Below the pieces are notes generated by a model that saw only the letters and a program-made list of their open reading frames with translations, had not been told where the DNA came from and did no database searches. Shown piece after piece: positions 30,464 to 47,016 of a DNA stretch of 64,000 bases. Source of the stretch: Cyanobacteria bacterium FACHB-DQ100. GTDB taxonomy: Bacteria; Cyanobacteriota; Cyanobacteriia; Leptolyngbyales; Leptolyngbyaceae. The stretch covers positions 248,001 through 312,000 of the forward strand of contig JACJNW010000039.1 of assembly GCA_014695195.1 (NCBI GenBank). Direction: 5' to 3'. Both the position numbers and the translations under genes were made by a program. Numbering within the stretch: the stretch's first letter is position 1; each line of letters starts with the position of its first letter.

Positions 30464-31315
30464 TCAGTAATTTGTCACCAAGACTTCTGTGATCTTGCCG
30501 CGTTTTTCTGCATTGCAGTTAATATTGCGGGTTGCATAAATGGTGTGAATGTTGAATTCTTTGTACACCTCACGAATAAACGGACAATCGGAGTTTGAGA
30601 GCATCACCTTTACGCCTCGATCGCTTAACTCTGTCATCACATCGCGCAATTGCACCTGCTGATCTTCGCTGAACGAATAGCGATTGTAAGCAGTGAAGTT
30701 ACTGGTTGGGCTAATCGGATAGTAAGGTGGATCAAAGTAAACAAAGTCTTCTGAACTACAAGCATATTGCAGCACTTGATCAAATGATCCAGGTTCAATT
30801 TGCGCGTTCGATAGCGCGATCGAGTCCGCTCGAAGCACCTCTGGATCATAAATCCCAGGCTTTTTGTAACTGCCGATCGGCACATTAAAATGCCCTTTGG
30901 AGTTCTCACGGTACAGTCCGTTAAAGCAAGTTTTATTCAGATAAATCAGTCTTGCAGCGCGATCGACATTATTACCGGCATAAAACCAATCGTCTGAGGC
31001 GGTGATTTGAGCGCGGACTTGGTAGTAATGCTCTGGGCAATGTTGCTGATGATGTTGCTCTAAGCGATCGATCAACTCTTCCACCTGATCGCGCACACAC
31101 CGATAGACATTGACTAGCTCAAGATTAATATCAATCAATAATGATGTTGCGGGCTGGAGATGAAAGAAAATTGCTCCACCTCCGACAAACGGCTCATAGT
31201 AATTCTGGTAACGTTTCGGGAAATAGGAAACGTACTGCGAAATTAGCTGGTTTTTTCCGCCTGCCCACTTAATAAATGGGCGTGGTAACCCTGGGGACTG
31301 TACTTGAGTAATCAT
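30464..31315 (-). CDS. dam: Dam-type (D12 class) DNA adenine-N6 methyltransferase, probably GATC-specific
   Basis: About 283 residues. SAM site FIKWAGGKNQLISQY, FVGGGAIFFHL, catalytic DPPY in YFDPPYYPISPTSNFTAY and the D12 ending KRGKITEVLVTNY. Order and length match Dam/DpnIIA alpha-class enzymes that make GmATC. No restriction endonuclease gene is adjacent, so it looks like an orphan (housekeeping) methylase. In cyanobacteria GATC methylation coexists with abundant HIP1 sites (GCGATCGC), which contain GATC. ATG 31315 is preferred to GTG 31330. Its promoter region, 31340-31410, has an unusual GATC cluster. Confidence 0.88.
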   Translation of the reverse strand: MITQVQSPGLPRPFIKWAGGKNQLISQYVSYFPKRYQNYYEPFVGGGAIFFHLQPATSLLIDINLELVNVYRCVRDQVEELIDRLEQHHQQHCPEHYYQVRAQITASDDWFYAGNNVDRAARLIYLNKTCFNGLYRENSKGHFNVPIGSYKKPGIYDPEVLRADSIALSNAQIEPGSFDQVLQYACSSEDFVYFDPPYYPISPTSNFTAYNRYSFSEDQQVQLRDVMTELSDRGVKVMLSNSDCPFIREVYKEFNIHTIYATRNINCNAEKRGKITEVLVTNY

Positions 31316-31346
31316 GTTTTTATTTAACACCTAAAATACATTTGAT

Positions 31347-31386
31347 CTGATCAGTATTCGTATTATAAAAATGACACTCTGATCAG
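31347..31386 (-). promoter_or_regulatory. dam promoter with paired CTGATCAG palindromes
   Basis: Minus-strand TATAAT (31362-31367) gives a consensus -10 box, placing the transcription start near 31355 and leaving a leader of about 40 nt before the dam ATG. Identical 8-bp palindromes CTGATCAG sit at 31347-31354, at the expected start, and at 31379-31386, between -10 and -35, exactly 32 bp apart start to start (about three helical turns). No good -35 was found. Five GATC sites lie between 31344 and 31408. This is operator-like; the regulator is unknown. Confidence 0.55.
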
Positions 31387-31444
31387 GTTTCGTAATTGAT
31401 CTCTGATCTCGATATGATGGAATGGAGTTTAGAAAATAACCCTT

Positions 31445-31651
31445 ATGATTCAAGACCTTTGGAACACCGTTTCTAAATACCCCAAGTTTGTAATCGGTGT
31501 CATTCTTGGCATATTCCTGAATGCTGCTGCGCCGCTCGTGCCGCTGTTCAAACGCCCTGTAACCGCGATCGCGCTGGTTGGTGTTCTTGTCGGTGGACTT
31601 GCCTTTGTTTCTTTCACCCTCAAAGCAATGCTCGGTTTAGATCCGCTTTAA
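31445..31651 (+). CDS. DUF751 small membrane protein
   Basis: 68 residues with two hydrophobic helices (about 14-34, VIGVILGIFLNAAAPLVPLF, and 40-62, AIALVGVLVGGLAFVSFTLK). DUF751 genes are conserved in cyanobacteria and plastids, often next to rbfA as here (33 bp upstream). Function unknown. Transcription is divergent from dam, and the GATC-rich intergenic region is shared. Confidence 0.78.
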   Translation: MIQDLWNTVSKYPKFVIGVILGIFLNAAAPLVPLFKRPVTAIALVGVLVGGLAFVSFTLKAMLGLDPL

Positions 31652-45569: not shown

Positions 45570-46964
45570 TTACTCATCCACCCGTTTCAAGAAAGCTGCA
45601 CATTCGACGTGAGCGGTCTGCGGAAAAAAGTCCGCAGGCTGCACCCGCTTCAGTTGATACATATTACCTGCACACAGCACCTTTAGATCGCGTGCAAGAG
45701 TTGCAGGGTTACAACTGACGTAAACGATTTGCTTTGGTTTCTGAAGGCGTAACGTTTCTAAAACGCTAGCATCACAGCCTTTTCGGGGCGGATCGAGCAT
45801 GACTAAATCAGGGTGAAGGGAGAGGGTGCGCAAAGCTTTTTCAACCGAGCCGACCTCAAAGCTGACATTTCCAATTCCATTTAATGCTGCGTTCTGCTGC
45901 GCTTGCTCGATCGCTTCGGGCTGAATTTCGATTCCGATCGCAGTTTTGACGCGCTGTGCGATCGGTAAAGTCATCGTGCCAATTCCGCAGTACAGATCAA
46001 TAAAGGTTTCATCCCCTTGTAAGTTCAACTCATCCAAGATTGTCGTTAACAATGCTTCTGCTTGCTCGGTATGAACTTGGAAAAATGTATCCGGTCGAAT
46101 GTGAAAGGTTAATCCAGCAAATTGCTCACTGAGAAACGGTTGCCCCGCAATGCAATGGGTTTCTGCCCCAAAGATGGCGTTTGTGCGATCGGGCTGCACA
46201 TTGATCGACACTCCTACAAGAGCTGGGTACCGTTGTAGCCATTCCTGCGCTTGAGCTTCTAGATTTGGTAATTCTGGATCAGCCGTCACCAACGTTAACA
46301 GCACTTCACCTGTACGCTGTCCGATTCTCAAAGCTAAATGCCGCACTTGTCCCCGATGATACTTCTCATCATAAACCCGCCAACCTTGCTGCTGAATATC
46401 GTGTTTCACCTCAGCCAAGAACGGATTCAATCGTTCATCCTGAATCGGGCATTGATTCAGATTCACAATTTGATGCGTTCCTTTCTGGTAATACCCGGCT
46501 TGTACTTGTCGATGCTGCGATATCCCTAGCGGATAAGTTGCTTTATTGCGATAGTGCAGAGGCTCGCTGACGTTAAGAACTTCATCAATTGCAACTCCCT
46601 CGAATCCCCCGATCCGCTCTAACGCTTGCACAACCTGATTGCGTTTCGCCGTGCGCTGATATTCATACTCGACGTGCTGCCACTGACATCCGCCACACTT
46701 ATCCGCCACAATGCAACTCGGACGCACTCCATACGGAGACTCTTCGAGCAGTTCATGTATCTTTGCATGAGCGTAATTCGGCTTGACGTGCATCAATCGG
46801 ACGATCGCCCGATCGCCCGTCACCGTATCCGGCACAAATACCACCCGCGATCCGGATCGTCCAACGCCATCACCCCGATCGCTTAAATCTGTGATCGTCA
46901 CTTCGATCAGATCACCTTGTTTCCAAGGGCTATCAATCGGGGCGGTTTCTAACTCTGAGGGCAC
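45570..46964 (-). CDS. rlmD: 23S rRNA (uracil-5-)-methyltransferase, RlmD/RumA family
   Basis: 464 residues. An N-terminal TRAM domain (EVTITDLSDRGDGVGRSG), the 4Fe-4S cysteine cluster (CIVADKCGGCQWQH plus NLNQCPIQ), and the SAM methyltransferase core with FIDLYCGIGTMTLPIAQ, MLDPPRKGCDASV and VYVSCNPATLARDL (catalytic Cys). The position specificity (U1939 versus U747) cannot be read with certainty. Immediately upstream of lpxD with no gap. Confidence 0.88.
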   Translation of the reverse strand: MPSELETAPIDSPWKQGDLIEVTITDLSDRGDGVGRSGSRVVFVPDTVTGDRAIVRLMHVKPNYAHAKIHELLEESPYGVRPSCIVADKCGGCQWQHVEYEYQRTAKRNQVVQALERIGGFEGVAIDEVLNVSEPLHYRNKATYPLGISQHRQVQAGYYQKGTHQIVNLNQCPIQDERLNPFLAEVKHDIQQQGWRVYDEKYHRGQVRHLALRIGQRTGEVLLTLVTADPELPNLEAQAQEWLQRYPALVGVSINVQPDRTNAIFGAETHCIAGQPFLSEQFAGLTFHIRPDTFFQVHTEQAEALLTTILDELNLQGDETFIDLYCGIGTMTLPIAQRVKTAIGIEIQPEAIEQAQQNAALNGIGNVSFEVGSVEKALRTLSLHPDLVMLDPPRKGCDASVLETLRLQKPKQIVYVSCNPATLARDLKVLCAGNMYQLKRVQPADFFPQTAHVECAAFLKRVDE

Positions 46965-47016
46965 AACAATTTACCAATAAGGTCTGTTCCATTGTGACGT
47001 TTTTTGGCAAAGTCGA

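Follow-up and report, generated by a model that had tools for sequence, protein, structure and literature searches.

What accounts for a dense group of GATC sites directly in front of a gene whose own product methylates GATC: chance in a GATC-rich genome, an ordinary promoter, or a control region that responds to the enzyme? The question is raised by a locus in Cyanobacteria bacterium FACHB-DQ100 (GCA_014695195.1), which lies in a stretch of 64,000 nt (contig JACJNW010000039.1, positions 248,001-312,000, forward strand) that is called the window in the following and whose numbering is used for all coordinates. The spacer concerned separates two divergent genes:

30464..31315, minus strand: dam, encoding a DpnM-type GATC adenine methyltransferase of 283 aa, with its ATG at 31315
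31445..31651, plus strand: the gene encoding a DUF751 (Ycf33-like) protein (PF05421, 2.1e-26), the divergent neighbour of dam

The dam product was recovered by profile matches to PF02086 (1e-67) and TIGR00571 (above cut-off), and by comparison with structures to DpnM (2dpm, 1.6e-76) and E. coli Dam (2g1p, 1.5e-46). Its DPPY and FNGL.R.N...FNVP.G.YK motifs, which represent the D12 domain and the Dam-type recognition segment, align with those of both enzymes, and by homology the protein is GATC-specific. The ATG at 31315 was preferred as start over the GTG at 31330 (288 aa), because in more distant orthologues the alignment begins at about residue 6 of the GTG frame, and in three of them a stop directly precedes this point. 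The surrounding genes encode MBL-fold, DUF751, RbfA and GH3 proteins, and the divergent dam-DUF751 order is common to many cyanobacteria, from Leptolyngbyaceae to Nostoc and Microcoleus. Neither the DpnII endonuclease (PF04556) nor SeqA (PF03925; E. coli control detected) gave a match in the 8 genomes of the genus, which suggests that dam is an orphan methylase comparable to DmtA and M.Ssp6803III.

An earlier note on this DNA had described five GATCs within 65 bp of the dam-DUF751 spacer, which are indeed present (at 31344, 31349, 31381, 31398 and 31405), and had described two identical CTGATCAG palindromes 32 bp apart, which are found at 31347-31354 and 31379-31386. The exclusion of the common HIP1 repeat also holds, as 0/5 of the GATCs have a GCGATCGC / CGATCG context. 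Both of the window's copies of CTGATCAG lie in this spacer, and the 99 sites in 5.51 Mb lead to an expectation of about 0.06 pairs within 32 bp genome-wide; pairs of TGATCA at 10-40 bp from each other number 56 in the genome. The window as a whole contains 702 GATCs, against about 358 expected from dinucleotide shuffles, and 337 of the 702 are CGATCG. Since five GATCs within 65 bp or less are found at two further places in the window, clustering by itself says little and it is conservation that carries the case. One of these places, at 46849-46913 (65 bp), is likewise free of HIP1 and lies within a long minus-strand reading frame (46002-46970). Read in the sense of dam, all five GATCs of the spacer are followed by A and then by A or G (GATCAA / GATCAG), and thus form loose direct repeats.

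The dam upstream region was readable in seven genomes of the genus (G000, G001, G002, G004, G005, G006 and G007); G003 was left out of the upstream alignment because its contig starts within dam. Fourfold-degenerate sites within dam are near saturation (pairwise differences 0.25-0.59), and 9/70 of them (13%) are invariant in all seven. The alignment of the spacer contains two conserved blocks, E1 and E2, which together hold four of the five GATCs:

31331..31354, minus strand: E2, the proximal block, in dam sense CTGATCAGATCAAATGTATTTTAG, with GATC C (31349-31352) and GATC D (31344-31347)
31381..31401, no strand assigned: E1, the distal block, a 21-bp imperfect inverted repeat, in dam sense GATCAATTACGAAACCTGATC, with GATC B (31381-31384) and GATC A (31398-31401)
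31405..31408, no strand assigned: GATC A', the fifth site, present just in this genome and G007

E2 is invariant in 24/24 columns, its GATCs C and D being 5 bp apart, and no longer invariant run occurs in the 1.56 kb over which the six genomes with DUF751 upstream were aligned. E1 (GATCAnTTAnnAAACCTGATC), a nearly invariant imperfect inverted repeat of the form GATCA-n11-TGATC, is kept in all seven genomes, with GATC A changed to GATT in G006, and its segment AAACCTGATCA is invariant in 10/11 columns. The layout of the alignment in dam sense is CATCATATCGAGA - variable - GATCAATTACnAAACCTGATCA - 25 variable columns - CTGATCAGATCAAATGTATTTTAG - RTGTTAAATA...ATG. The 25 bp that separate E1 from E2 have 5 invariant columns and a constant length, and the distance from GATC B to GATC C is 32 bp (about three helical turns) in 7/7 genomes; the far side of E1 has several lengths. 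In the 150 bp before dam the genus has 29 GATCs against 10.9 expected, and 29 against 5.6 when non-HIP1 sites are considered, although the relatedness of the seven genomes means that these are not seven independent tests. A general enrichment of GATC before dam was rejected, as a further 55 dam loci, almost all from cyanobacteria, have 58 GATCs in the 150 bp before dam against 48 expected; the effect is therefore specific to this lineage. Being confined to this genome and G007, GATC A' is probably incidental. That E1 and E2 are under selection as a two-part element linked to dam, each part containing GATCs and the spacing being fixed, is well supported.

The promoter layout that the earlier note had drawn around the GATCs did not fare equally well. 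The candidate signals in the spacer are:

31362..31367, minus strand: TATAAT, present in this genome as described and proposed there as −10, conserved just here and in G007
31333..31338, minus strand: TATTTT, a candidate dam −10 of the TAnnnT type within E2, invariant in 7/7 genomes and TATTTG in a further genus, g3
31407..31419, plus strand: TCTCGATATGATG, a candidate −10 region of DUF751 by its position, with TATGAT at 31413-31418, invariant in 7/7 genomes and kept in g3

The two palindromes are kept as an identical pair in 2/7 genomes (this one and G007), the second site being CTGATCAAA in the other five. TATAAT likewise is found in 2/7 (the same two), TGTAAT in 3/7 (G001, G004 and G006) and neither in 2/7 (G005 and G002). 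A consensus scan of the spacer recovered no recognisable −35 and no sigma-70-type promoter, so that the placement of one site at the transcription start and of the other between −10 and −35 was an interpretation. Most relatives thus lack the paired palindromes, which is the outcome that the note had named as refuting its proposal, but they keep the GATC-bearing blocks that underlie them, and for that reason the idea of self-regulation survives in altered form. A selected regulatory element with fixed spacing stands, and a methylation-linked self-regulation of dam is plausible; judged from the alignments, the conserved element is real and stronger than first argued, and the two-palindrome TATAAT framing is unsupported. 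TATTTT would fit a TAnnnT-type −10, in which case GATCs C and D would be situated just upstream of it.

The association extends beyond the genus and follows dam. In two genomes of genus g3 (dam 66-69% identical), E1 as GATCGATTATCAAACCTGATCG and the E2 core CAGATCAAATGTATTT precede dam; GATCs B and D are 31-32 bp apart, GATC C is absent, and one of the two genomes (G009) has a degenerate E1 without GATC A. In G017 (genus g11), E1 is found as ATCAATTAGAAAACCTGATC, inverted and about 100 bp before dam, with DUF751 elsewhere; its nature as an imperfect inverted repeat may explain why orientation is unimportant. GATC A is thus lost in G006, G009 and G017. In G002, E1 and E2 remain at dam and a 15.3-kb insertion separates DUF751 from them. 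As G017 keeps E1, and G002 both blocks, without an adjacent DUF751, E1, plus E2 where present, goes with dam, and these two genomes argue against DUF751 as the owner of E1. The insertion in G002 (L121, G002:C1:4021500-4038300) ends on one side with an IS110-family transposase gene and also contains an AAA-ATPase gene; it parts DUF751 from its presumed −10, the TATGAT remaining on the dam side.

In genera g5 and g8, of the same protein clade, dam and DUF751 are separated by 18-21 bp and the element is missing. The tree places g1, g3, g5 and g8 together, with moderate support, so that the distribution of E1 and E2 may reflect loss or separate gain, both being compatible with the data; since DmtA proteins are reported not to follow the strain phylogeny (PMC4390886), transfer of the element together with dam is also possible. 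The dam loci of Nostoc and Microcoleus that were examined do not have the element, nor do most cyanobacterial dam genes. In several loci of other genera (L008-L011, L014, L016, L017) the start codons of dam and DUF751 are about 20-45 bp apart and TTATGATA or TATATCATAA adjoins the dam ATG; so short a distance forces the divergent promoters to overlap, either with one another or with the coding sequences, and dam may have hardly any leader there. In Microcoleus and relatives (L064, L065, L071) the dam-DUF751 spacer contains tandem GATCGGGC units (CGATCGGGCGATCGGGC), a GATC-rich sequence of another kind, in another lineage.

We also considered whether the blocks mark a regulon. Among 42 genomes of the family, the exact E2 core CAGATCAAATGTATTT occurs exclusively before dam, with one-mismatch matches scattered, and the shorter CAGATCAAATGTAT is never near dam outside the two genera. 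E1-like strings away from dam lie mostly within reading frames, two or three being outside and not obviously related. The string TGATCWGATCA is found 4-9 times per genome of the genus, and the two non-dam copies that were examined in this genome lie within reading frames. The exclusive position of the E2 core and the location of most E1-like strings in reading frames led us to reject a regulon and point to a dedicated dam element; no second functional copy was found, and the element is apparently unique to dam.

We therefore read the dam-DUF751 spacer as a putative dedicated, two-part cis-regulatory region of dam. E1, which by itself looks like one operator (GATCA...TGATC, 21 bp), with a GATC at each end, would be the probable operator of a dimeric DNA-binding protein, and E2 probably overlaps the dam core promoter (with TATTTT as the TAnnnT-type −10) or the start region. 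As the encoded enzyme has targets in both blocks, methylation of their GATCs may alter the binding of RNA polymerase and/or of the E1-binding protein, and dam transcription would thereby be tuned to the level of methylation; in the simplest form this would be a negative feedback, in which un- or hemimethylated DNA permits dam transcription and full methylation reduces it. We give an even chance to a dam-specific operator/core promoter whose GATCs let transcription respond to methylation, and consider methylation feedback to be the best-supported mechanism, with the scales about level. More tentative, and in our view rather unlikely in this specific form, is that the predicted dimeric protein itself reads the methylation of E1 (and E2) and so sets the level of the orphan GATC methylase. 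Such a sensor would constitute a homeostat for genome-wide GATC methylation in cyanobacteria without SeqA, or would provide a replication-coupled pulse of dam. A conserved cis-element built on the enzyme's own sites would make self-regulation testable by a few point mutations and a reporter.

The main rival is that E1 and E2 serve dam, and perhaps DUF751 as well, as a conventional operator and core promoter, with the GATCs as incidental letters and methylation irrelevant. Entire blocks are conserved and not GATC alone; the flanks are conserved to the same degree as the GATCs, a picture that would be expected of any sequence-specific operator, and this, together with the absence of GATC A in three genomes, where it is dispensable, and the resemblance of E1 to a dimer operator, makes the rival a strong one. 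It has to accommodate the fact that 35 conserved bases contain three invariant GATCs, all of them non-HIP1, against about 0.17 predicted from the window density (C and D belonging to one motif and not being independent), and that these are located at the very gene whose enzyme acts on GATC; we regard the rival as a serious possibility that falls somewhat short of even. That the cluster is merely a product of chance in a GATC-rich genome would agree with the 702 GATCs in 64 kb and with the other five-GATC clusters of the window, and chance may be the origin of the fifth site A'; for B, C and D it is contradicted by selective conservation in two or three genera, and as an explanation of the whole it is hardly credible.

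Two further readings place the function elsewhere. E2 could act in the mRNA, as a conserved segment of the 5' leader of dam, such as a translation element or the following mini-ORF:

31325-31342, minus strand: mini-ORF ATG TAT TTT AGR TGT TAA (AGG here) in the presumed dam leader

E2 would indeed lie in the leader if TATAAT were the −10, and the mini-ORF (MYFRC-stop) is intact in 6/7 genomes of the genus, AGG and AGA being synonymous. TATAAT is unconserved, however, the leader has no stable fold (z 0.79), and the ATG of the mini-ORF is without a preceding Shine-Dalgarno-like sequence; moreover, the mini-ORF is not kept in g3 and its stop is lost in G004, where it is in frame with dam. A role in the mRNA therefore appears improbable. 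Alternatively, the element might mainly serve DUF751 (Ycf33) and affect dam incidentally, as its position between divergent genes and the invariant TATGAT adjoining E1 would allow. This is very improbable in view of G017, in which E1 precedes dam with no DUF751 nearby, and of G002, in which both blocks stayed at dam after the 15-kb insertion (which may be recent). The reading that we prefer remains the dam-specific element whose GATCs may make transcription responsive to methylation.

In enterobacteria, Dam-sensitive operators consist of SeqA- or regulator-based GATC clusters in regulatory DNA. E1 and E2 resemble them in having their GATCs within regulatory DNA, and differ from SeqA-type control in that SeqA was not found in the 8 genomes of the genus. 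Enzymes of the same kind are the cyanobacterial orphan GATC adenine methylases DmtA of Anabaena and M.Ssp6803III (slr1803) of Synechocystis, both of which were reported to be essential (PMC4390886, PMC6604393). A word search of the HIP/DmtA paper (PMC4390886) revealed no mention of a promoter or of autoregulation, and the papers that we found do not describe how the level of this orphan methylation, reported as essential in Anabaena and Synechocystis, is controlled. Direct precedents for control by methylation of the enzyme's own promoter come from restriction-modification systems: the methylase promoter of CfrBI is blocked once a site between the overlapping divergent promoters is methylated, and the AhdI and LlaDII methylase genes are likewise controlled (PMC12707154). 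These systems share with dam the presence of the methylase's own target sites in its upstream regulatory region, and CfrBI also shares the position between divergent genes, whereas for dam no DpnII endonuclease was recovered, the neighbour is DUF751, and the dependence on methylation is a predicted one. The ccrM gene of Caulobacter, which is most probably self-regulated through methylation of GANTC sites in its promoter (PMC3973325), differs from dam in enzyme class and target site, and resembles it as an orphan adenine methylase, one for which there is evidence of control via its own sites.
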